Source: Pseudomonas protegens CHA0 (lineage in GTDB: Bacteria; Pseudomonadota; Gammaproteobacteria; Pseudomonadales; Pseudomonadaceae). Taken from it: a DNA stretch of 64,000 bases. Shown here in pieces: positions 1 through 28,428 of the stretch (positions are counted from its first letter, which is position 1; every line of letters begins with the position of its first letter). The DNA lies in the NCBI RefSeq assembly GCF_000397205.1, contig NC_021237.1, forward strand, positions 5,749,501 to 5,813,500, written 5' to 3'. The notes under the pieces were generated by a model. The model did no database searches. It was not told the origin of the DNA and was given only the letters and a program-made list of their open reading frames with translations. Made by a program: the position numbers and the translations under genes.

Positions 1-2377
1 AGGTCCAGATGAAGACGGCAAGCCGCGAAAAGTCTTTGCGCCGTTGACCTGGTGCAAGCGTTCCGATGGGCAAACCACACAATGGCGCTGGCAAGGCCTG
101 CCTGAGCCTAGGCCACTGCTGCGCCTGGATGAGCTAGTACAGCGCACCGATGCGGCTGTGGTGTTGTGTGAAGGCGAAAAGGCCGCTGACGCCGCTGCTG
201 AACTCATGCCCGACCACGTAGCCACCTGCTGGCCGAACGGCTCCAACTCTTGGCATAAGGCTGACCTGACGCCACTCAAAGGACGCACGGTGGTCCTGTG
301 GCCGGATAACGATGCCAGCGGCAAGACCTGCATGGACGCCATCGAGCTCAAGCTGAATGAGCTGAGCGCCGCCTCAGTAAAACGAATATCGCTCGACGTG
401 TTCAAGCTCAAGCCCAGCAGCAAAGGCGGCAAGCCTACGCTGATCAAGGGTGGAAAATGGGCAGACGGCGATGACGCAGCGGATGCGTTAGCCAAAGGCT
501 GGACCGCTGGTCACGTCGCCGAGCTGGTGCGCAGCGGTGAGTTTTTCGGCGGTGCCTCTGAGCCAACTGAACCCCAAGAACAGACGGCCAAGGCGCCCGC
601 CAAACGTCCTGCCAAATCGAAGCACGACCTGTTGCCAGGCGGCTTTCGCCTGACGCCTGAAGGGGTGTTTTATTCCGGCGATGATGGCGAGGCGCGTCCT
701 GTGTGTTCGCCTCTCGAAATCATCGCCCGCACTCGCGACGACAAGGGCCACAACTGGGGCTTGCTGGTTGAATTCGACGACCCAGACGGAGCCAAAAAAC
801 GCTGGAACATTCCGGCCAGGACCATGACCGGCGACTTCGGCAAAGACGTACTCGGCCCGCTGGTAGACATGGGCCTACGCCTTGCCGGAAGCCGATCAGG
901 GCGCAACGCACGCAATGACCTGCAGAGTTACCTTGGCGGCTTCGACAGCGCCCAGCGCGCACGCTTGGTGACGCGCTTGGGCTGGCACGACAATGCGTTT
1001 CTATTGCCCGAACAACAGATCGGCTCGCACGCCGAACACCTGCATTTTTATGAAGCCGGGGCGCAGCTTCCACCCATCAACGAGGCGGGTTCTCTGGAGC
1101 AGTGGCAGCAGCAAATCGGCGCGCTATGCATCGGTAACCACCGCTTAGCGTTTGTCGTCTCTGTGGCGTTTGCAGGGCCTCTGCTGAACCTGCTAGGTCA
1201 TGAGTCGGGTGGCTTCCACCTATACGGCGACAGCTCCGGGGGCAAGACCACTCACCTGCAAGTCGCTGCTTCGGTTTATGGCGGGCCGCGCCTGGTGCGT
1301 TCATGGCGCTCGACAGATAACGCCCTGGAGTCCATCGCAGCCGCCCATTCAGACGGGCTCCTGGTGCTGGATGAAATCGGCATGTGTGACCCACGCATTA
1401 TTGGCGAGACGGTGTACATGCTCGGCAATGGCACGGGTAAAGCCCGGGCGAATGATCGAGGACAAGCGGGCCGACAGGTGCAGGAGTGGCGCTTGCTGTT
1501 TCTCTCGACCGGCGAGAAGACGTTGGCGCAGCACATGGCGGATGCAAACAAGGAGCTGAAAGCGGGCATGGAGGTGCGCATGCTTGCGGTGCCTGCGGAT
1601 GCGAACAAAGGCCTCGGCATGTTCGATGTGCTGAATGGTTTTGAGGATGCTGCTGCCCTCTCCGATGCGCTCAAGGCCCGTGTAGCCAAATACTACGGCA
1701 CGCCCCTCACCGCCTTCCTGCACGCACTGTGCGCGCCAGGAGAAATGCTCAGATGGACGGTGATCATTCGCCGCACGGTGGAGCAGCTCATCACGCAAAA
1801 CCTACCTGCATCGGCCAGTGGGCAAGCCCAACGTGCAGCCCTTCGCTTTGGCATCGCAGCAGCGGCCGGAGAGTTGGCCACCGCCTTTGGCGTCACCGGT
1901 TGGCCTGATGGTACGGCCACGACTGCTGCGCGGGTTTGCCTGCATGCATGGCTGGCTGAGCGCGGCGGCGCCGGTAACTTCGAGGGCGATGCGATTTTGG
2001 CGCGGCTGAGACAGGTCATCGAGCGCTTTGGAGAAAGTCGCTTTACCCGCTGGGAATCTGCCGCCGCCAAGATCGATGAGCACGGCCCACGCACGATTGA
2101 TCGGTTGGGCTTTCGCAAGACGATGGAACACGGCATGGGCGATGCACTGCACACCACCAACACCTATTACGTGCTGCCGGAAGCATGGCGCTCCGAGATC
2201 TTCCGAGGAATGAACCTAAGTGCGGTCAACAAAGAGCTTTTGCGAAGGGGTGTTCTAGAGCCAGGAAAGGACGGCAAAGCTTCAACCGCAGTGCGGCTAC
2301 CCGGACTGGGCTTGCAACGCTGCTATGTGGTTATCGCAGTGCCCGAACAAGGTGATCACGGCGCCCAGGCGGCCTAA
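1..2377 (+). CDS. DUF927/Toprim primase-helicase, 5' end cut by window
   Basis: The frame is open from base 2 with no stop, so the gene begins before the window; an internal TTG at 44 is probably not the start. The N-terminal part has a Toprim-like segment (VVLCEGEKAADAA, later VVLWPDND) as in primases of plasmids and satellite elements. The middle is a DUF927 domain with a Walker A motif GDSSGGKTT (residues 395-403 counted from base 44) and a Walker B GLLVLDEIG about 45 residues later. The known family role is replication or maintenance of integrative elements and phage satellites. Its presence marks this end of the window as mobile DNA. The product class is secure; its activity is inferred from the family. 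Confidence 0.85.
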   Translation, partial: GPDEDGKPRKVFAPLTWCKRSDGQTTQWRWQGLPEPRPLLRLDELVQRTDAAVVLCEGEKAADAAAELMPDHVATCWPNGSNSWHKADLTPLKGRTVVLWPDNDASGKTCMDAIELKLNELSAASVKRISLDVFKLKPSSKGGKPTLIKGGKWADGDDAADALAKGWTAGHVAELVRSGEFFGGASEPTEPQEQTAKAPAKRPAKSKHDLLPGGFRLTPEGVFYSGDDGEARPVCSPLEIIARTRDDKGHNWGLLVEFDDPDGAKKRWNIPARTMTGDFGKDVLGPLVDMGLRLAGSRSGRNARNDLQSYLGGFDSAQRARLVTRLGWHDNAFLLPEQQIGSHAEHLHFYEAGAQLPPINEAGSLEQWQQQIGALCIGNHRLAFVVSVAFAGPLLNLLGHESGGFHLYGDSSGGKTTHLQVAASVYGGPRLVRSWRSTDNALESIAAAHSDGLLVLDEIGMCDPRIIGETVYMLGNGTGKARANDRGQAGRQVQEWRLLFLSTGEKTLAQHMADANKELKAGMEVRMLAVPADANKGLGMFDVLNGFEDAAALSDALKARVAKYYGTPLTAFLHALCAPGEMLRWTVIIRRTVEQLITQNLPASASGQAQRAALRFGIAAAAGELATAFGVTGWPDGTATTAARVCLHAWLAERGGAGNFEGDAILARLRQVIERFGESRFTRWESAAAKIDEHGPRTIDRLGFRKTMEHGMGDALHTTNTYYVLPEAWRSEIFRGMNLSAVNKELLRRGVLEPGKDGKASTAVRLPGLGLQRCYVVIAVPEQGDHGAQAA

Positions 2378-3542: not shown

Positions 3543-5270
3543 TCAACCTACTGTTAAATTTCTTTTCAATTGAACATATCTACCCCTAAAAAAATGTACG
3601 GGCAGAGGATATCTGTAATGCCGACAAGCCATAACGACAAGCGGCCAATGTCTTAGCTTTACGGCGCTTAGGGAATTGAAGCCTTCAGCCTCCTCACATT
3701 CTTTGAAAACCATATCCAAGAATTGTGACATCCCGTCCTCCCCTTCCATAGACACGTGGGACAGAGTGGCACCATGAGAGGATTTATTACTATAAAAAGC
3801 ATTTTCTGAGTTGACGTCAGGAAACCAAATTTGAAAATTACAGTGCTCCAAAAACTCTTTTTTTATAGTACGTACTCTATTGAAAGCCTCTTCATCACCA
3901 ATCAAAGCCGCCAGAAGTGCCAGATAAGGGTAAAGAACTGACCCTGCTGTAACCTCCTGGAAGTAGGCATCGCTATTTTGAGGATGTTCAATTAGCTTGT
4001 AATAATCATCCAAATTACAAGGGTATTGGTTTTTTGTGGCGATCTGATAGTGCGCCGCCCCAAGAATCTGGTTAAGCCAATCACCAACAAATATATCCAC
4101 TCCAAAATCCAAAGATAAAAACCAAGCAGCCAAAGCTATATCAATCCCCTGATCATCTTTACATGGGGTATTCAAAACTGGATTGTTAATAATCATTTCA
4201 GAAATGCAACACTGCAACCCTCTTATAGTTTCAACTACTGACACCCCGTACTCAGAAGACCTTTCATCCCGGGCCAGACTGTCAAGAACCCATATATTCC
4301 ACAGACCTAAAGATGCTACGCGCCCGAGCACATCAAACATCTTAAGGTTCACATCCGTGGAGCAAGAAGGAAACACAGCCGCCGAAAGTGCATGAAGCTT
4401 ATTCGTGTAGGGCAAGACACACCTGTCCATATAATTAGCGCTTATCTGGACATGCAATAGCTGTATTGCATTAAACGTATTACGGATTGATATATGAGTT
4501 TTGGTCGCTCCCGCAAAAAACTCTTTACACTTATCCCAAGAGTGCAACACGCACAACTCGCTAGAAACATAAGAGCTTTCTAAGTTATTTTGATCACGCG
4601 ACCATGAAAACAAGATCCACAAGCAAAGATAAGCTTGACGCAAAGACATCAACAACTCTTCTTCCGAAGCAGCACCATCGGAAAGCAATAGGTGAATTAG
4701 TCGTTTGAAATTCGCATACGAAGCATCAGGCTCATCAAGTATTGCAATTGATTTTCGAAGTAATGCTCGACAACACTCAGGCAACAACTCCTCTCTCAAA
4801 AAATGTCGCTCGATTAGGTTCGCTAGTTTTTCGCCATTCCACTCACTAAAACTAATATTACCCTTGGTATTCTTATTAATATAGCTACTTACATCTAGCC
4901 TGACTGTTTCCTTTATATTACCACCAAAGCAGAGACATATATCAATTGGCTTATCTTGATAAGGCGCAGGCAGATGAGAACCAATATACGTATCGATAAT
5001 TGAATTCAGCGATGGCCTTAGCGACTGAGGAGATGCACTATCCCAATCAGTTCTTCCAAGATCACCAGACTTCACGGAGAAGAGATAGACCGTTTCAGGC
5101 CCTCCATCAATACTCCCAATCGCTGCCACATCTACGCCGTATTGCCTACCGCCAACGCCAGGCTTAGAAAAAACATCTAGGCCCATCTGCGATAAAAGGT
5201 CAGGTAACAACGCATCTAATTCTTTACGTTCCCGCAACCCAGCTAAATACTCTCTAATTATTAACTTCAT
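3543..5270 (-). CDS. putative PD-(D/E)XK-like nuclease-domain protein, defence-type cargo (575 aa)
   Basis: Unrecognised family. The N-terminal 100 residues contain a pattern like Mrr/PD-(D/E)XK nucleases: GRQYGVDVAAIG (D47), then VYLFSVKSGD (S66-V67-K68), where S-x-K would stand in for E/Q-x-K. The remaining roughly 450 residues are mostly helical with no motif I can name and no membrane segments. Its ATG overlaps the stop of the upstream helical-repeat gene (ATGA, 5267-5270), implying translational coupling and a joint function. Base composition is far more AT-rich than the flanking chromosome, a sign of transfer. The nuclease assignment is an inference from two short motifs. Confidence 0.6.
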   Translation of the reverse strand: MKLIIREYLAGLRERKELDALLPDLLSQMGLDVFSKPGVGGRQYGVDVAAIGSIDGGPETVYLFSVKSGDLGRTDWDSASPQSLRPSLNSIIDTYIGSHLPAPYQDKPIDICLCFGGNIKETVRLDVSSYINKNTKGNISFSEWNGEKLANLIERHFLREELLPECCRALLRKSIAILDEPDASYANFKRLIHLLLSDGAASEEELLMSLRQAYLCLWILFSWSRDQNNLESSYVSSELCVLHSWDKCKEFFAGATKTHISIRNTFNAIQLLHVQISANYMDRCVLPYTNKLHALSAAVFPSCSTDVNLKMFDVLGRVASLGLWNIWVLDSLARDERSSEYGVSVVETIRGLQCCISEMIINNPVLNTPCKDDQGIDIALAAWFLSLDFGVDIFVGDWLNQILGAAHYQIATKNQYPCNLDDYYKLIEHPQNSDAYFQEVTAGSVLYPYLALLAALIGDEEAFNRVRTIKKEFLEHCNFQIWFPDVNSENAFYSNKSSHGATLSHVSMEGEDGMSQFLDMVFKECEEAEGFNSLSAVKLRHWPLVVMACRHYRYPLPVHFFRGRYVQLKRNLTVG

Positions 5271-6997
5271 AGCCTAACGGCTCCTACTCTAAAAGCCCGC
5301 AGCATGTACTCCAGCCCCCCAGAGTCAAGATTACCTAGTGAAGGATACTCTACAGACGTACTAAAACTATGCATCGGATTTTCTTGGCGGACCTTTTCTC
5401 CATTAGGGCCGTGATACACATAATTTATAGAGCTGTTTCCGTACAAAATTACTGAGGGCCTCCCCATGAGAGCAGTCATCAGAGAATCTTTTTTAGCGGA
5501 CTTAAATGATTCCTCCATTTGACGATTAAAACGACGTTGATACGCTTGCCGCTGAGACAGTGGAGCCTCCAATTCTTTTACGTTGGAAATGCTCTGAAGT
5601 CCCTCGTGATATGAATTTAATCTACACAACACCCGATCAATTATTATTGCAGATTCTTGTGAAAGCTCATCACGCTTAGATCTGAAGTATTCTCCGACAC
5701 TTCCACCATAGCTAATCAATAATGGATTAAATAGCATTTCCTCTATCTTTGCTCGCTCAGCGTCTGAAGCAGTATTAAGTGACGAGACCATAAGGCTCGC
5801 AGCGCTCACCGGGTATGCAAACAACCAGCCACAGGCTCTCATTGCCAATAGCAAGTTAGCATTGGGTGGAATCTCGTCCAACAACCCCAAGTCAGCAGAA
5901 AGCCCTATATTTGACCCCCGACCATCTGAAACTATCTGGCCGACAGAGGAACAAAGTTTTCTTTTGCTAGATAATAGCCATCGGGTGACTATTTGTTGTC
6001 GTAAAATCGTACTTTGCGGCTCATCAAGACTCCACATAAAGTGTTCGAAGTCAGAGACAGCCAAATCAGCACCATTCTTTTCCAGTAGGTGTTCAATAAG
6101 CACCAGAATATCTCGCGCTTTGCCCCCGATCAAAAACGGTTCGAACCCTAAATCCAGAAACTTAATCGCCTCTCTATTAGTTGGCGATATCGTTTTGAAC
6201 TCCTCTAGCAAAATTGAAACAATGGACTCAGGCGTATGAAGTTTACCCATCATGAATAATTTAGCTGCAGTGCAAATTACCAAATCACTTGGACACTTGA
6301 AAATCCGACCTACCAGAATCAAGCATTTACTTTCGACATCCTGGCTCATAGGAGCTAATGAAAAAATAGTCTCGAGGGCGGCAGAGAGAAAATCTTCGTC
6401 GCAATCTATTAAGCCTTTATCAATTGCGTCCAATGTTAGCTTTGCTCGAATTACATCTTCCTCGTATCCAAACCGAGAAAGAGACTGCAACGCTAAAGCT
6501 CGCAGACGCGGTTCGCTCGCATCAATTAAATTTATGGCTTTTAGTTGAAATTCGTCAAAATCTATTTTCGAGCCAGCGATTAAAACAACATTCAGAAAAT
6601 TAGATTCCGGATATAAATTCTTTGCCAACTCAAATGCTTCTTCTAAACTCGCCGGGTTTGCCAAGCAGTATTTTTCAAAGGAAGACAACAAGTGAAAATC
6701 AGCACCACCGGCCCTACCAAGTCGATTTATACTAAACATTATATCGGCCACGGGCGCATCAATTAGTTCTAACACCCCCGCAAAAACCTCAATAATTGTA
6801 AACCACTCAAAGCCAAAAATATCTTGCTCTAGAGACTGGTACTCCGCCAAAACATCAATTAAATTTTCAGCATGCAAATTCGCAACTATACAAATTAACT
6901 CAGACTTTTGGTTCTCTTTCACCACAATATCGAAAAACGCAGAAAACACTAGGCGCTTTGCAACGGAATCAAAAACCTGCTCAACACTAACACTCAT
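5267..6997 (-). CDS. helical-repeat (HEAT-like) protein, partner of the downstream nuclease-like protein (576 aa)
   Basis: I do not recognise the family. The sequence is almost wholly alpha-helical, with repeating segments such as LRALALQSLSRFGYEEDV that resemble HEAT/ARM solenoid repeats over residues of about 60-470. A basic, Gln/Arg-rich helix follows (QRQAYQRRFNRQMEESFKSAKKD), then a compact beta-containing C-terminus. There are no catalytic motifs, signal peptide or membrane spans. A GAGGG ribosome-binding site lies 7 nt before the ATG. The gene is AT-rich and ends in an ATGA overlap with the next gene. A two-gene system of sensor/scaffold plus effector is a plausible reading, but unproven. 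Confidence 0.6.
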   Translation of the reverse strand: MSVSVEQVFDSVAKRLVFSAFFDIVVKENQKSELICIVANLHAENLIDVLAEYQSLEQDIFGFEWFTIIEVFAGVLELIDAPVADIMFSINRLGRAGGADFHLLSSFEKYCLANPASLEEAFELAKNLYPESNFLNVVLIAGSKIDFDEFQLKAINLIDASEPRLRALALQSLSRFGYEEDVIRAKLTLDAIDKGLIDCDEDFLSAALETIFSLAPMSQDVESKCLILVGRIFKCPSDLVICTAAKLFMMGKLHTPESIVSILLEEFKTISPTNREAIKFLDLGFEPFLIGGKARDILVLIEHLLEKNGADLAVSDFEHFMWSLDEPQSTILRQQIVTRWLLSSKRKLCSSVGQIVSDGRGSNIGLSADLGLLDEIPPNANLLLAMRACGWLFAYPVSAASLMVSSLNTASDAERAKIEEMLFNPLLISYGGSVGEYFRSKRDELSQESAIIIDRVLCRLNSYHEGLQSISNVKELEAPLSQRQAYQRRFNRQMEESFKSAKKDSLMTALMGRPSVILYGNSSINYVYHGPNGEKVRQENPMHSFSTSVEYPSLGNLDSGGLEYMLRAFRVGAVRL

Positions 6998-7234: not shown

Positions 7235-8533
7235 CTAGATCGGGCGCGCGCGCGTTAGAAGACCGCTAATAATTTTGGCGCCTTCAGATACAAAACCGGT
7301 CAATAATCCCGATGCCCAATCGAGTAGTGGCTGCAGCACGAGCATCACCTCGGGCGTCTTAACCAGGAACACGTAGCCCGTGATCGCCGTCAGCACAAAT
7401 GAAAGAACCGTGAGCGACCAAGCCATTTTTAGGTTCAGATTGCAGTCGGATTTCAAACTGTCGAAGATCGTTGCCACCTCAGCGAAAAGCTTCGGCAGTT
7501 CATGACGAAAACGCTTTTCCTTCTGCACTATTTCATACCTGATTGCCTTGATGGCAATCACCTGGCTTTTGATAAGCCATACGATGATCGTAAGAAAAAA
7601 AAGCGACGACGCCATGACCGTACAGTTAATGGTGAGATGAATGTTGTCTGTCGGCTCTTTTAGCTGTGTCGTAGCTAGGATCGTGGACACGGGTATGGCC
7701 AAAAGCTTGCCTTGGATACCAATGAGCAACCCGTTGAGCTTGACGCTGAACTCTCGTTTCTGCTCATTGAGTTTGTCGAGGTCGTTATTGAAAGAGAAAT
7801 TGGATATGAACAGCTCATAATTATTCTGAGCATTTTCAAGAATTTCATCGCAATGACTCAACAGATGCGACAGCCGGTTAGATTCTTCACAGGACTTCAA
7901 GCTGGAGATCATTGCATTGCGTATAAGCCTTTTCTTTTCCGCGCCGTGCAGCGTGTCGGACAGCATGTCTTCCAGCTTTTCCAGGCCACGAGCAACGACG
8001 TCGGCGGTACGTAGTACGGTTGTTGCGTTGACACCGTAGGTAAGGTAAATCTTCTGGTCGTACGTCATCAGCGTAAAGCGAGTACCTGTCACTTCCAATA
8101 TGGAATTGTGCTCAAGCTGTTTGATGAAACAGGACGCAATAATCACAGAGGCTGGATTTTTTTCCGGTTTGACGCTCCACGATTTGTAGCCAGAGTCGAT
8201 CAGTGCGAAATGCTCAGGCAAACAGTGCAGATTGAACACCGCGAGGAGGTCTTCCTCATCTTTGGCGAGGCAGTGCTGCGAGCCGCGAGGGGGGGCGATG
8301 GCTATTTCGACGCACTGCTCGGCGGCGGCGGCGAGCGTGATCAGCCGCCCATTCAGGCGCACCTCAATCTCGACAGCGTCGCTTTCGTTCAGTCTGTCCA
8401 GTATCACGCGTTGAGCCGCTTGCAGGCGCAATTTTGCGGTGAGTCGGTGACCTGACCATTGCATGGGACACATGCGGTTCAACCGCAGGATGTCTTCTAT
8501 CCCCTCGATGGGCGTCAAGGAAGACCCCATCAC
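7235..8533 (-). CDS. C-terminally membrane-anchored protein coupled to a nucleoid-associated protein (432 aa)
   Basis: Unrecognised family. Residues 1 to about 290 look cytoplasmic, with alpha/beta character and a helical stretch rich in Glu/Leu/Asn (SLKSCEESNRLSHLLSHCDE). Two clear transmembrane segments follow (VMASSLFFLTIIVWLI and LTVLSFVLTAITGYVFLV), and a third amphipathic or hydrophobic stretch near the end (VMLVLQPLLDWASGLLTGF). The start overlaps the stop of the upstream NdpA-like gene: GTG at 8533 gives GTGA, while ATG at 8530 would give TGATG. Tight coupling to a nucleoid-associated protein suggests a DNA-sensing partner and a membrane effector; this is inference. Confidence 0.65.
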   Translation of the reverse strand: MMGSSLTPIEGIEDILRLNRMCPMQWSGHRLTAKLRLQAAQRVILDRLNESDAVEIEVRLNGRLITLAAAAEQCVEIAIAPPRGSQHCLAKDEEDLLAVFNLHCLPEHFALIDSGYKSWSVKPEKNPASVIIASCFIKQLEHNSILEVTGTRFTLMTYDQKIYLTYGVNATTVLRTADVVARGLEKLEDMLSDTLHGAEKKRLIRNAMISSLKSCEESNRLSHLLSHCDEILENAQNNYELFISNFSFNNDLDKLNEQKREFSVKLNGLLIGIQGKLLAIPVSTILATTQLKEPTDNIHLTINCTVMASSLFFLTIIVWLIKSQVIAIKAIRYEIVQKEKRFRHELPKLFAEVATIFDSLKSDCNLNLKMAWSLTVLSFVLTAITGYVFLVKTPEVMLVLQPLLDWASGLLTGFVSEGAKIISGLLTRARPI

Positions 8534-9549
8534 GCTTTCGGAATGTTAGGCTTGATGCTATCAGGTACCTTGGTAATGACCAGGTGCCCCTCGGCATTCA
8601 GGTAAATGGTCTTATTCTCCAAGGCCGCCTGCTCGAACGAGAGCGTATATTCCTTATTCGGCCCTGAGACCCTGTACTTGAGCAGTGATTTCAGGTGCTT
8701 GGCTACAGGCTCGAACTCCGCAGGGATCTCAATTTTGCTGCGGGTAACAAAATCGATGAAGTTATTGGGATCGCCCGGTTCCAACTGGTTTGCTACTTCA
8801 CGCAGGGTAATGCTTTCTCCCTTAGCGATTTTTCCGTCAGCCCACTCCTGGATGGCACGGCGGCTGTTCAAGGCCTCGTCCTCGCCCTTGAACTCCTCAC
8901 AGTAGTTTTTTATCAATGTCACGAGTTGCTGGGTGTGCTTCGACGGATCGAGATAGGCTTCTTCATCGATCCCAAGGAGAGACTTGAAATAGCCCACCAC
9001 AGTGTCTTTCCGATTTTTACCCTTTAGGAACGAAACATGGGGCGCCTCAAGGTCCATGTCAGCTTCTTGCCAACGGCGTATGTCGATATTCGCGGCAAAG
9101 TGAAGTTTATCGATGTCGAGTGTGTCGATTTCCTCAAGGTTGAGGTTCTCGTCAATACCGATGCCCTTGGCATTCTTGATGAGAACGATCATGAGATTAG
9201 GCTCCCCATCGATCAGGTAATCGATGATAGTCAAGAATCCCCCGGTGGCCAGTGGCGCCTTCTCGAGCTCGATTTTGAGCTGAGCGAGGGTGTCCATCGA
9301 GAACTGGTAAAACCCAAGTTCTTTAGCGAAGTAGCGCTTGGTTTTAACGTCGAACCAGCTGTCGGCCAGGATACGCGCGTACGCCATGTTACCCTCGCCC
9401 TGGTAACTCGTAAGAATCGTGCTGACGAGGGTATCGGCCTTGGGTTCCGGAAGGTCAATCTGTCGCTCGCGTGGAACTAATACAACGCCCTTGTCACGCT
9501 GGTTGGTCACGACTTTGTGAAACACAAACCCTTGTAGCTGAAATTCCAT
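8530..9549 (-). CDS. nucleoid-associated protein, NdpA/YejK (NA37) family
   Basis: Length (339 aa) and layout fit the 37-kDa nucleoid-associated family: an N-terminal half with ...GFYQFSMDTLAQLK...GGFLTIIDYLIDGEPNLMIVLI, then ENLNLEEIDTLDIDKLHFAANIDIRRW and VSFLKGKNRKDTVVGYF, which match the order in E. coli YejK ([33 protein letters not shown]). A SD-like AAGGAT precedes the ATG by 6 nt. It is divergent from the housekeeping YejK and heads a two-gene unit with a membrane protein. A LexA-type palindrome lies 134 bp upstream. Island-borne members of this family probably act on DNA in defence or stress, but that role is inferred. Confidence 0.8.
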   Translation of the reverse strand: MEFQLQGFVFHKVVTNQRDKGVVLVPRERQIDLPEPKADTLVSTILTSYQGEGNMAYARILADSWFDVKTKRYFAKELGFYQFSMDTLAQLKIELEKAPLATGGFLTIIDYLIDGEPNLMIVLIKNAKGIGIDENLNLEEIDTLDIDKLHFAANIDIRRWQEADMDLEAPHVSFLKGKNRKDTVVGYFKSLLGIDEEAYLDPSKHTQQLVTLIKNYCEEFKGEDEALNSRRAIQEWADGKIAKGESITLREVANQLEPGDPNNFIDFVTRSKIEIPAEFEPVAKHLKSLLKYRVSGPNKEYTLSFEQAALENKTIYLNAEGHLVITKVPDSIKPNIPKA

Positions 9550-9682
9550 GATGATCCTTATCAGAAGCCGCGGGCCTTCCCGAGTAGGGGGAATTCTAGC
9601 TCATGCTGGCATGGAGCCACATTTCCTTATACAGCGATTCACGTAGTAAACGCCTGGCTCAGCTTGTCACACCTCCTCAACC

Positions 9683-9700
9683 ACTGTATGCAAATACAGT
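9683..9700 (-). promoter_or_regulatory. LexA (SOS) box upstream of the NA37-membrane operon
   Basis: ACTGTATGCAAATACAGT is a perfect palindrome of two 7-bp arms around 4 nt and matches the CTGT-N8-ACAG LexA consensus. It lies 134 bp before the ndpA-like start, with no other gene between. DNA-damage induction of the pair is the natural inference. Confidence 0.75.
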
Positions 9701-9916
9701 ATTTTGTTTTCACATTACGGGCAAGTCTCTGTCGATTGCGCAGTAAGCTTAATCGGCCTTACATAGCAAGGTAGACTGGAAGGGGAACTGTTCGTTACAG
9801 CACAGTCCAAGAAATGAGTCTTCCAAAAAAGACGCTATACGGGGGTATTACCTTAATTATCCTACCGCCCCGCTTAAGCCGATATAGCCCTCCACAGCTG
9901 AGAATTCTGATCCAAT

Positions 9917-11016: not shown

Positions 11017-11096
11017 AATGACCAACACCGCACGAAACCCTTTAAATACAGCACATTACAAGATCAGTTCAAATGACTGTGTACCACCAAGTACTA

Positions 11097-25576: not shown

Positions 25577-26191
25577 ATGCCCAAACCGCACCAAGACACC
25601 ACCGCCCCCACCCTGCTTCAAGACCTGCGCGCCGGCACCGCGACCTTGCACGTGGCCCTGGAAAAGCGCCTGCCGTTCTTCTCCGAGCATCTCGATGCGG
25701 CCTGGTACCGGCGCCTGATCCAGGCCTATTTCGGCTTCTATCAGCCCCTGGAGGCGGCCCTGCATGACAGCGGCCTGATCCCTGCCGGCTACGACCCGGA
25801 GCAGCGCCGCAAGACCCCGGCCCTGGCCGGCGACCTGCAGGCCCTGGGCCTGGCCCCGGAGCGCATCGACGCCCTGCCCCGCTGCGACCATCTGCCCGCA
25901 CTGGCCAGCCCCGGCGCGTGCCTGGGCGCCCTCTATGTACTGGAGGGCGCGACCCTGGGCGGGCAGATCCTGCGCCGGGAAATGGCCCAGCGCCTGGACC
26001 TGCACGGGGATAACGGCGGGGCTTTCCTCGACGTGTATGGCGCCGCCACCGGGCGGCGCTGGAAAGACTTTCTCGACTACCTGGGGCGCATGCCCGAGGA
26101 CGCGAGCGCACGACAACAAGTGGTCAGCGCCGCGCAATCCACATTTGCCTGTTTCGAGCAATGGCTCGACAGCCGCGAGGTGCTGCTATGA
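25577..26191 (+). CDS. bphO: haem oxygenase supplying biliverdin to the phytochrome
   Basis: The protein fits the haem-oxygenase family in length (204 aa) and in motifs: LRAGTATLHVALEKRLPFF (His near residue 26 is the candidate proximal ligand), LGALYVLEGATLGGQILRREM and the C-terminal helix. It opens the haem ring to biliverdin, the chromophore of the bacteriophytochrome. Its stop overlaps the start of bphP as ATGA, so the two proteins are co-produced. Confidence 0.92.
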   Translation: MPKPHQDTTAPTLLQDLRAGTATLHVALEKRLPFFSEHLDAAWYRRLIQAYFGFYQPLEAALHDSGLIPAGYDPEQRRKTPALAGDLQALGLAPERIDALPRCDHLPALASPGACLGALYVLEGATLGGQILRREMAQRLDLHGDNGGAFLDVYGAATGRRWKDFLDYLGRMPEDASARQQVVSAAQSTFACFEQWLDSREVLL

Positions 26192-28428
26192 CCCCACAAG
26201 ACGCCCAAGCCTTCGAACAACTGCTGGCCAACTGCGCCGATGAGCCAATCCGCTCCCCCGGGGCGATCCAGCCCCATGGCGTGCTGCTGACGCTGTCGGA
26301 GCCGGAGCTGCGCATCCAGCAGATCAGCGCCAACGTCGAGGCCCTGCTGGGCCAGCCTGCCGCGCAGGTCCTCGGCCAGCCCCTGGAGCAACTGCTGGGA
26401 GACACCGACGGCCAGCGCATCCGCGAGGTGCTGCAACTGCCGCGCTTGTCCGATGCGCCGCCGCTGCACCTGGCCGTCAATGGCGCGCGCTTCGAAGGCT
26501 TGCTGCATCGCCACCAGGGAGTGCTGATGCTGGAGCTGGAAATCCAGCTCGAACACCTGCAGCCCCAGCACCTGAAAGAGCAGACCGAGAACCTGGGGCG
26601 CCTGCTGCGGCGCTTGCAGACGGCCAAGACCCTGAATGAGCTGTACACCATCAGCGTCAGCGAAATCCAGGCGATGACCGGCTACGACCGGGTGCTGATC
26701 TACCGCTTCGAAGAGGAAGGCCACGGCCAGGTGATCGCCGAAGCCACCCGCCCCACCATGGAAGTGTTCAATGGCTTGTTCTTCCCGGCCTCGGACATTC
26801 CCCAGCAAGCCCGCGAGCTGTACCGCAGCAACTGGCTGCGGATCATCCCCAACGCCGACTACCAGCCGGTGCCCCTGCTGCCGGCGCTGCGCCCGGACAC
26901 TCAGCAGGCCCTGGACCTGAGCTTCGCCACCCTGCGCAGCGTGTCGCCGATCCACTGCCAGTACATGAAGAACATGGGCGTGCTGTCCTCCATGAGCATT
27001 TCCCTGCTCAAGGGCGACCAGCTCTGGGGCCTGATCAGTTGCGGCAACCGCCAGCCGCTGCTGGTGCCCCACGAGCTGCGCATTGCCTGCCAGACCATCG
27101 GCCAGGTGCTGTCGTTGCAGATCAGCGCCATGGAAGCCCTGGATATCAGCCGCCAGCGGGAAGAGAAAGTCGCCGCCCTGGCCAGCCTCGACCAGGCCAT
27201 GCGCGACACCCCCGACAGCGTCTTCGACGGCCTGACCCAGGTGCCGCAACTACTGCTGGAGCTGACCCAGGCCGGTGGCGTGGCAATCATCGAAGACAAG
27301 CAACTGCACTGCTTCGGCAACTGCCCGCCCCAGGACGAAATCCGCGCCCTGCACCGCTGGCTGCAAGGCACCGGGCAGGCGGTGTTCGCCAGCCATCACC
27401 TGGCCAGCGTCTACCCGCCGGCGGCGAGTTATCAACAGGTGGCCAGCGGGGTCCTGGCCATGACCCTGCCCAAGCCTGTGGATAACGGCGTGCTGTGGTT
27501 CCGCCCGGAAGTGAAGGAAAACATCAACTGGAGCGGCAACCCGCAAAAGCCCCTGGACCTGGAAAACTCCGACGCCGGCCTGCGCCTGCGGCCGCGTACC
27601 TCGTTCGAGATCTGGAAAGTGGAGATGGCCGGGATCGCCACCAAGTGGAGCCACGGCGACCGCTTCGCCGCCAATGACCTGCGCCGCTCGGCCCTGGAGC
27701 ACGACCTGGCGCGCCAGGTGCTGCGCGAGCAACAGGCCGTGCGCGCCCGGGACGAACTGGTGGCGGTGGTGTCCCACGACCTGCGCAACCCGATGACCGT
27801 GATCTCCATGCTCTGCGGCATGATGCAGAAGGCCTTCAGTTCCGATGGCCCGCATACCTCACGGCGCATTTCATCGGCCATCGACACCATGCAGCAGGCC
27901 GCCAGCCGCATGAACAATCTCCTGGAAGACCTGCTGGACACCTCCAAGATCGAGGCCGGGCGCTACAGCATCGCCCCGCAGCCGCTGGACGTCAGCCAGA
28001 TGTTCGAAGAGGCCTATTCATTGCTGGCGCCACTGGCCCTGGACAAGGCCATCGACATCAGCTTCCACGCCGAACCGGACCTCAGGATCAACGCCGACCC
28101 CGAGCGCCTGTTCCAGGTGCTGTCGAACCTGGTGGGCAACGCCATCAAGTTCACCCCCAAACAGGGCAAGGTCGGGGTGGTGGCGATGTCCGACGGCGAG
28201 CAGATCGTGTTCAGCGTGCGCGACTCCGGGGAGGGCATTCCCACCGACCAGTTGCCATTCATTTTCGACCGCTACTGGACCCTGAAGGAAGGCAACCCCA
28301 ACGGCACCGGCCTGGGGCTGTACATCACCCAGGGCATCATCCACGCCCACGGCGGCAAGATCGAAGCCCACAGCGAAGTGGGCAAGGGCAGCGAGTTCCG
28401 CTTCAGCGTGCCGCGCGCCAGCCTCTGA
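26188..28428 (+). CDS. bphP: bacteriophytochrome histidine kinase
   Basis: 746 residues: PAS with chromophore Cys16 (LANCADEPIRSPGAIQPHG), GAF with PASDIP (200-205) and pocket His256 (SPIHCQYM), PHY, then a histidine kinase with H-box VVSHDLRNP (His530) and HATPase motifs NLVGNAIKF, RDSGEGIP and GTGLGLYI. It senses red/far-red light through biliverdin made by BphO. The start at 26188 overlaps the bphO stop. No response regulator follows, so its phosphorelay partner is elsewhere. Confidence 0.95.
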   Translation: MTPQDAQAFEQLLANCADEPIRSPGAIQPHGVLLTLSEPELRIQQISANVEALLGQPAAQVLGQPLEQLLGDTDGQRIREVLQLPRLSDAPPLHLAVNGARFEGLLHRHQGVLMLELEIQLEHLQPQHLKEQTENLGRLLRRLQTAKTLNELYTISVSEIQAMTGYDRVLIYRFEEEGHGQVIAEATRPTMEVFNGLFFPASDIPQQARELYRSNWLRIIPNADYQPVPLLPALRPDTQQALDLSFATLRSVSPIHCQYMKNMGVLSSMSISLLKGDQLWGLISCGNRQPLLVPHELRIACQTIGQVLSLQISAMEALDISRQREEKVAALASLDQAMRDTPDSVFDGLTQVPQLLLELTQAGGVAIIEDKQLHCFGNCPPQDEIRALHRWLQGTGQAVFASHHLASVYPPAASYQQVASGVLAMTLPKPVDNGVLWFRPEVKENINWSGNPQKPLDLENSDAGLRLRPRTSFEIWKVEMAGIATKWSHGDRFAANDLRRSALEHDLARQVLREQQAVRARDELVAVVSHDLRNPMTVISMLCGMMQKAFSSDGPHTSRRISSAIDTMQQAASRMNNLLEDLLDTSKIEAGRYSIAPQPLDVSQMFEEAYSLLAPLALDKAIDISFHAEPDLRINADPERLFQVLSNLVGNAIKFTPKQGKVGVVAMSDGEQIVFSVRDSGEGIPTDQLPFIFDRYWTLKEGNPNGTGLGLYITQGIIHAHGGKIEAHSEVGKGSEFRFSVPRASL

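Follow-up and report, generated by a model that had tools for sequence, protein, structure and literature searches.

What does a perfect LexA-type box control on a mobile island of Pseudomonas protegens CHA0, and what is the two-gene unit that lies behind it? The question arises in a 64,000-nucleotide stretch of the genome (the window; GCF_000397205.1, contig NC_021237.1, positions 5,749,501 to 5,813,500), where a gene for a YejK/NdpA-type protein with the NA37 domain overlaps a gene for a membrane protein, here called partner A. The reading we favour, with a confidence little above even, is that the two genes form a divergent DS-1-like anti-phage module carried by a mobile island, which would be repressed by LexA and in which the NA37 protein would control a membrane effector, with an abortive outcome.

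The NA37/YejK-type gene (8530..9549, minus strand; 339 amino acids; supported by Pfam, NCBIfam, PHROGs and a profile match) presumably encodes the DNA-engaging component, and gene A (7235..8533, minus strand; 432 amino acids with a GTG start; supported by NCBIfam, PHROGs, hydropathy and alignment) the presumed effector. The first product covers the whole Pfam NA37 model (9e-49), and a GTGA joins its stop codon to the start of gene A, with an ATG immediately after that GTG. An earlier note, written from the DNA letters alone, had described a YejK/NdpA-type gene overlapping a gene with C-terminal membrane helices; the open reading frames (ORFs), the GTGA overlap and the hydrophobic stretches were all found. 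Hydropathy places these stretches at residues about 269-287, 310-328 and 366-391 of partner A (gene segment 7361..7729, minus strand, by hydropathy and alignments), suggesting three membrane helices in its C-terminal part. The N-terminal part is without a hydrophobic stretch, both by hydropathy and in the alignment, with the hydrophobic helices following it, and we read it as a cytoplasmic N-terminus with a coiled coil. Conservation among the three nearest proteins peaks in the segment before and within the first hydrophobic stretch, where Pro281 is invariant in the 18-row and the 20-row alignment.

Is this combination a known one? The earlier note had held that it was not a described system, a claim that has to be given up: each of the two genes has its homologue in the DS1 pair (PMC13092281), which rules out an undescribed system. 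Validated systems carry the name DS in DefensePredictor, which counts a YejK nucleoid-associated domain among those newly validated, with phage tests in E. coli MG1655, and phage protection is reported for this E. coli YejK-domain system (PMC13092281). We equate DS-1 with the YejK-domain system because the names of the NCBIfam models say so. The window NA37 gene matches NF053868 (DS1_1, nucleoid-associated anti-phage protein) with 60.3 bits (E 1.5e-16), not reaching the cut-off of 330, and gene A matches NF053869 (DS1_2, anti-phage protein) with 56.9 bits (E 1.9e-15), not reaching 315; the YejK model NF001557 gives the NA37 gene 166.8-167.9 bits, likewise below its cut-off of 341. Since both proteins are homologous yet fall below the cut-offs, the window pair is a divergent DS-1-like pair and not a DS-1 equivalog, and it almost certainly belongs to the wider DS-1 family.

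The DS1_2 and DS1_1 models match 18 of 18 members of both family alignments (E 0.001 or better). Among ten partner proteins scanned singly, those of loci L050 (321.5 bits) and L067 (349.4 bits) exceed the NF053869 cut-off, and an E. coli prophage pair, L086, exceeds both DS1 cut-offs (451 and 375.2 bits). Profile comparison links the L086 group to the window clade (96.9%, E 1.5e-10, 151 columns). In PHROGs the NA37 protein falls into phrog_3767 and partner A into phrog_5023 (1.6e-30), and the NA37 family profile matches the solved YejK structure 9be2. The housekeeping yejK of the genome lies elsewhere (G000:C1:1214584-1215543, 330.7 bits), with no partner in the 3960 bases around it and no box (best score 4.2). 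A single-sequence scan of genome contigs found no relative. A short DNA match to the L086 NA37 gene (8% of the query) occurs in 105 of 5426 E. coli genomes, two of which were examined, and BLASTN of L053, L065 and L067 against E. coli genomes gave no match. The E. coli-type pairs of L086 (4024-6416) and L085 lie in prophages and adjoin an antiterminator Q gene; the NA37 gene of FORC_069 (L085) is annotated as two pieces. Two other resemblances of the partner were set aside, namely SieB, too weak with one of 18 members at 1.4e-4 and the window protein at 0.13, and PDB sequence matches (0.008 to 0.02), which were to eukaryotic membrane proteins at low significance and were not used.

Does the box belong to the SOS sites of this genome? 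The LexA-type box CTGTATGCAAATACAG (9684..9699, by pattern and matrix) lies 134 bp upstream of the NA37 ATG, within an 18-bp palindrome (9683-9700). CTGT-N8-ACAG occurs twice in the window against 0.65 expected, and 11 of 100 shuffles reach two, so that the pattern is weak taken alone. On a LexA matrix built from nine of ten fetched genome sites (L042 excluded, window box not in training), the window box scores 22.9, the training sites scoring 17.8 to 26.0; the second match, at 8117 within the membrane-protein gene, scores 11.9 and was rejected as a LexA site. Across the genome (6.87 Mb) the loose pattern is found at 39 places versus 18 for the reversed control, and six of the 39, the window box included, fit the tight form CTGTAT-N4-ATACAG. 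Loose-pattern sites lie directly upstream of lexA, yebG and an SRAP gene, that of yebG alone among these being tight, and it is also the only one of the five other tight sites with an SOS name by Pfam.

Ten of the 39 sites were picked by resemblance and their adjoining ORFs inspected, eight of them with Pfam searches (L036 and L042 outside). The names returned were lexA, yebG, the SRAP gene, two radical-SAM genes and a DUF1654 gene; L034 and L037 were the two ORFs without a Pfam family, and for L037 a UmuD-like identity is not claimed. The perfect LexA box that the earlier note had placed 134 bp upstream is upheld in its position, resembles the genome's own SOS sites and recurs before diverged relatives. 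By eye, a possible promoter (TTGCCC-N17-TACTGT, 9696..9724, minus strand) may overlap the box with its −10 element, and a plasmid relative, L078, has TTGTCA-N17-TACTGT at the corresponding place, also by eye. The pair is very probably under LexA control.

How constant is the pairing of the two genes? Within the genus, 27 of 398 genomes have the partner, and within the class 3 of 369 do, CHA0 being counted in both; a profile search of the genus returned 28 genomes, the additional one with a fragment. All but one of the 32 other-genome places were extended (26 other genomes of the genus; fragment G030:C41 left out), and NA37 lies directly upstream of the partner in 28 of the 31 genus places, the gaps ranging from −56 to +6 bases. 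In three of these 28 (L060, L064 and L071) the NA37 frame is interrupted or short, and the three places without an upstream NA37 have short partner genes (307, 272 and 272 amino acids). Outside the genus, where only opened loci are counted and several further matches are not among these, the same order is found in Pseudoalteromonas, Methylobacter, Sphingomonas and Xanthomonas plasmids, in one Sinorhizobium and two Klebsiella phages, in two further class genomes and in E. coli prophages. NA37 is directly upstream in the opened plasmid, phage, viral-contig and other-class relatives, with one exception, a Cupriavidus plasmid that carries a 208-amino-acid partner remnant and no NA37.

Among the E. 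coli-type loci, L085, L133, L143 and L145 have an interrupted NA37 followed by an intact partner, and L155 has an intact NA37 with an interrupted partner behind it. The earlier note had raised the case of homologues lacking the membrane partner, and the outcome is divided: every full-length partner examined follows an NA37 coding sequence, and NA37 without a detectable partner does exist (Vibrio phage D65, MT835540 and the housekeeping yejK). That a full-length partner never occurs without an intact NA37 is ruled out by seven loci in which NA37 is interrupted or short (L060, L064, L071, L085, L133, L143 and L145). One gene of the pair, and it can be either, is interrupted or truncated in L060, L064, L071, L133, L143, L145, L055, L072, L073 and L155; judged by the many broken copies, it is as if the system frequently decayed. 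The partnerless NA37 of Vibrio phage D65 lies at L162:3001-4056, and the NA37 query finds similar matches in 17 more Vibrio phage records.

Does the box, too, recur in the relatives? For each locus, the LexA matrix from other sites of the CHA0 genome was run over the 400 bp before the NA37 gene. The threshold of 15 was set after the scores were known, the pair scores forming two groups, at or below 5.9 and at or above 16.0. A box scoring 15 or more is present in 17 of the 28 genus places with NA37. For a count of intact pairs, L060 and L064 (both with box) and L071 (no box) were dropped for their interrupted or short NA37, and the window, L078, L117, L118, L119, L130 and L159 were added; the box then precedes 19 of 32 intact Pseudomonas-type pairs, which amounts to 9 of 19 clusters when the partners are grouped at 80% identity and to 5 of 13 when they are grouped at 60%. 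As a control, a box was found at 1 of 167 other ORFs of 150 amino acids or more in the extended loci, and this sole boxed ORF (L051:4875-5687) is divergent from a DS-1-like pair, the same LexA-type box being common to both. Fisher p values against the control are 1.5e-9 (80% clusters) and 5e-6 (60%), both rough, with ORFs called mechanically and relatives that are not independent.

Box-to-start distances range from 27 to 175 bases. The nearest relative of the window pair, L078 on a Pseudomonas plasmid (69% identity in the partner), carries CTGTGTATGCATACAG at a distance of 116 bp. Mapped onto a 22-row tree, from which eight near-copies, L130 and L159 were left out, the box label needs four changes against a shuffled mean of 7.2, with 4 of 500 shuffles as low and long branches flagged. 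The conjugative P. putida plasmid p716811-VIM (L159) carries a pair with a LexA-type box (24.0, 111 bp upstream) near a NACHT-domain gene.

Recurrence in relatives rules out a chance box, and its absence from 10 of 19 clusters and the scored E. coli-type loci rules out a universal family trait: the LexA-type box is recurrent, not universal. The box in related loci, to which the earlier note had tied its case, is therefore confirmed for 19 of 32 pairs and missing in L117 and the scored E. coli-type relatives. No box was found anywhere in the stretches examined of L117 (a P. putida contig, second-closest relative found, 51% in the partner), L044-L049 and L066-L068, or in the scored upstream stretch of six other non-Pseudomonas loci (L079, L082-L084, L160 and L161). 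The alpha-type LexA motif was not found upstream of L078, L079 and L082-L086, nor the Xanthomonas LexA motif upstream of L161. With no box at any scored locus of the E. coli type, that form of the system does not include SOS control. Some prophage stretches of the E. coli type have a LexA-like site at greater distance. Downstream of the pair, such sites with scores between 18.9 and 20.3 are present in phage stretches from Klebsiella and of the E. coli type (L081:6621, L151:6843, L152:6843 and L134:6981).

One of the ten boxless clusters (L043, L118 and L119) has no direct box and a different arrangement. In the viral contigs L118 (1098-5278) and L119 (1093-5290), the pair sits behind a umuD-umuC-like pair at a distance of 80 to 85 bp, the latter identified in L118 by Pfam Peptidase_S24 and IMS, and a LexA-type box precedes umuD in both, two of the three cluster members (scores 20.0 and 17.3). 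On the other side of this box lies an SRAP-like ORF, named by eye. The third member, L043, has a partial umuC about 150 bp upstream and an adjoining integrase gene, with no box in the locus. Going by this gene arrangement, nesting behind umuDC would be a second route to SOS control.

How might such a module work? LexA would bind the box and hold down the pair until phage attack or other DNA damage drives RecA-dependent LexA cleavage, upon which expression of both proteins would rise. The NA37 protein may then engage DNA, the nucleoid or a phage-altered topology and read its state, and would control, possibly by direct contact, the co-encoded membrane protein; the latter would damage or depolarise the membrane, so that infection stops and the cell pays. 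YejK is reported to interact with gyrase and topoisomerase IV (cited in PMC9927451), and NdpA2, an NA37 protein, raised the affinity of MvaT for a promoter that NdpA2 itself did not bind (PMC8565334). Gating of a membrane effector by NA37 is a proposal we hold with somewhat less than even confidence. The recurrence of the box in diverged relatives suggests that the damage alarm of the cell often serves to arm this defence. The fullest version is more tentative still: an anti-phage system may repeatedly have been put under the SOS repressor in Pseudomonas, through box gains and umuDC nesting, with a YejK-type DNA watcher gating a membrane effector, such that the phage would trigger the defence against itself.

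Several observations weigh against the proposed LexA-controlled module. Both window proteins score far under the DS1 cut-offs (60 of 330 and 57 of 315 bits), and the window NA37 is closer to YejK (168 bits) than to DS1_1. A direct box is missing from 10 of 19 Pseudomonas-type clusters, L117 among them, and from E. coli-type loci at score 15 within 400 bp (26 of 28 viral, and two chromosomes; for one viral locus the stretch was just 202 bp long, and for three the score was taken again from the true start). A consensus scan finds no sigma-70 promoter by the window box, which lies 134 bp from the gene. The ideas of protein contact and of membrane damage come from hydropathy and analogy, and the seven partners behind an interrupted or short NA37 argue against the membrane protein being toxic, or of no use, in the absence of NA37. 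Finally, NdpA2 alone gave no shift of a promoter fragment (PMC8565334), which weakens a simple role as DNA sensor.

Could the pair instead serve the damaged cell itself? NA37 might protect or reshape damaged chromosomes while the membrane protein slows growth, defence being a side effect of an SOS-induced damage-tolerance or growth-arrest unit. Growth would be slowed in the manner of TisB, an SOS-induced membrane toxin. The box and the umuDC linkage would fit, as would the reported gyrase and topoisomerase IV interaction of YejK cited in PMC9927451, and Salmonella yejK is listed among new SOS loci (PMC8072944), its LexA box lying 102 bp away by our reading of the table. We nevertheless consider this explanation unlikely, because the distribution is patchy and accessory (27 of 398 and 3 of 369 genomes), the locations are defence islands and prophages, and a YejK-domain system has tested anti-phage activity, its E. 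coli-type loci being boxless.

It is less probable again that the pair is a regulatory module of the island, in which an NdpA2-like NA37 relieves H-NS-type (MvaT) silencing after damage so that the island excises or moves, with the membrane protein as an accessory. NA37 proteins are found on integrative and conjugative elements (ICEs), plasmids and phages, and NdpA2 and TprA tune the transfer of PAPI-1 (PMC8565334); the pair does sit on an integrase island, some phages carry NA37 alone, and SOS induction suits mobile elements. The neighbours, however, are membrane-protein and Olokun genes rather than a ribbon-helix-helix regulator (no search for that family was made), the membrane partner is conserved behind NA37 across diverged relatives, both genes are homologous to a validated anti-phage pair, and the carriers are very different, with prophages by an antiterminator Q gene among them. 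Least credible is a constitutive DS-1-like system of the E. coli kind, with a box that is there by accident or has another function. In its favour are the lack of a direct box in the E. coli-type loci and in 10 of the 19 clusters of the Pseudomonas type, and the want of a strong promoter by the window box. Against it, the box is enriched (9 of 19 clusters, compared with 1 of 167 control ORFs), lies close in sequence to the genome's own SOS sites and has a counterpart in the umuDC nesting of another cluster.

On what kind of element does the pair travel? Directly downstream of it on the same strand (3543-6997), where the G+C content falls to about 0.42-0.43, are an OloA-type defence gene (5267..6997, minus strand; PADLOC OloA 9.3e-96) and an OloB-type defence gene (3543..5270, minus strand; PADLOC OloB 8e-194), which we take to be the Olokun system. 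A DUF927 gene, presumably primase-like, starts before the window and ends within it (44..2377, plus strand; Pfam DUF927 3.5e-82 on L120:13969-16878); a tRNA-Met (L120:9629-9705), a tyrosine integrase and an AlpA regulator also lie before the window. The tRNA-Met 3′ end has an imperfect copy at 11067..11094 (plus strand; 86% over 29 bases), likely the right attachment site, which suggests the right island junction there and an island of about 16 kb. An empty-site search with the gene to the right of the island matched 4 of 19 genomes, its own included, with one strong other match (G007, L123). By its gene content the carrier is an integrase-AlpA-primase island, and we give it no more specific label; antiviral systems are known to travel on phage satellites (PMC9122126). 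Farther into the window (25577-28428), a heme-oxygenase-like ORF is followed by a phytochrome-kinase-like ORF, both named by eye.

What would LexA control mean for this family? The passages of PMC13092281 drawn on here give neither trigger nor mechanism for the YejK-domain system, and the recurrent LexA box offers a testable arming signal. If our reading is true, the SOS regulon would be tied to immunity through a membrane protein, and the SOS response, beyond tolerating damage, would arm a last-line membrane-directed immune response; screens with unstressed cells or foreign promoters could then miss or misjudge such systems. Neither SOS nor LexA appears in the main text of the DefensePredictor paper (PMC13092281; supplements and figures outside the search), and among the matches listed no paper reports LexA control of DS-1 or YejK-type defence in its title or the start of its abstract. 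For the domain itself, Salmonella yejK (PMC8072944) is an earlier case of SOS control.

How, then, does the pair compare with known systems? Several share its NA37 protein. The housekeeping YejK/NdpA (PF04245; structure 9be2) has the same domain over its whole length as the window NA37, and the housekeeping yejK of CHA0 is a gene separate from the island copy, with no partner or box found. P. protegens temperate phages carry NdpA/YejK genes (PMC10305613). NdpA2 of the ICE PAPI-1 is, like the window protein, an NA37 protein on a Pseudomonas mobile element, but it is 97% like the host NdpA and acts with TprA on a pilus promoter, and the passages of PMC8565334 drawn on here mention no membrane partner. 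Others share its setting or its tie to damage. Olokun neighbours the pair in the same island and on the same strand; the two have no family in common in the searches made, and neither of the two loose LexA-pattern matches of the window is near Olokun. AbpAB is likewise a damage-tied defence; damage activates it, and RecA and LexA are reported to take no part (PMC10732053). With CapW/WYL regulators, defence is restrained at the level of transcription by a separate transcription factor (PMC9122588), whereas the proposed switch of the window pair is LexA itself. The closest counterpart is DS-1, which like the window pair is a two-gene operon with the YejK-domain gene first and the partner directly behind it, both genes being homologous and both systems lying in mobile or prophage locations. 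The window pair differs in its LexA-type box, which the scored E. coli-type loci lack, in scores far below the cut-offs and in its carrier, and what is new in it seems to be the control by a LexA-type box, not the gene combination.

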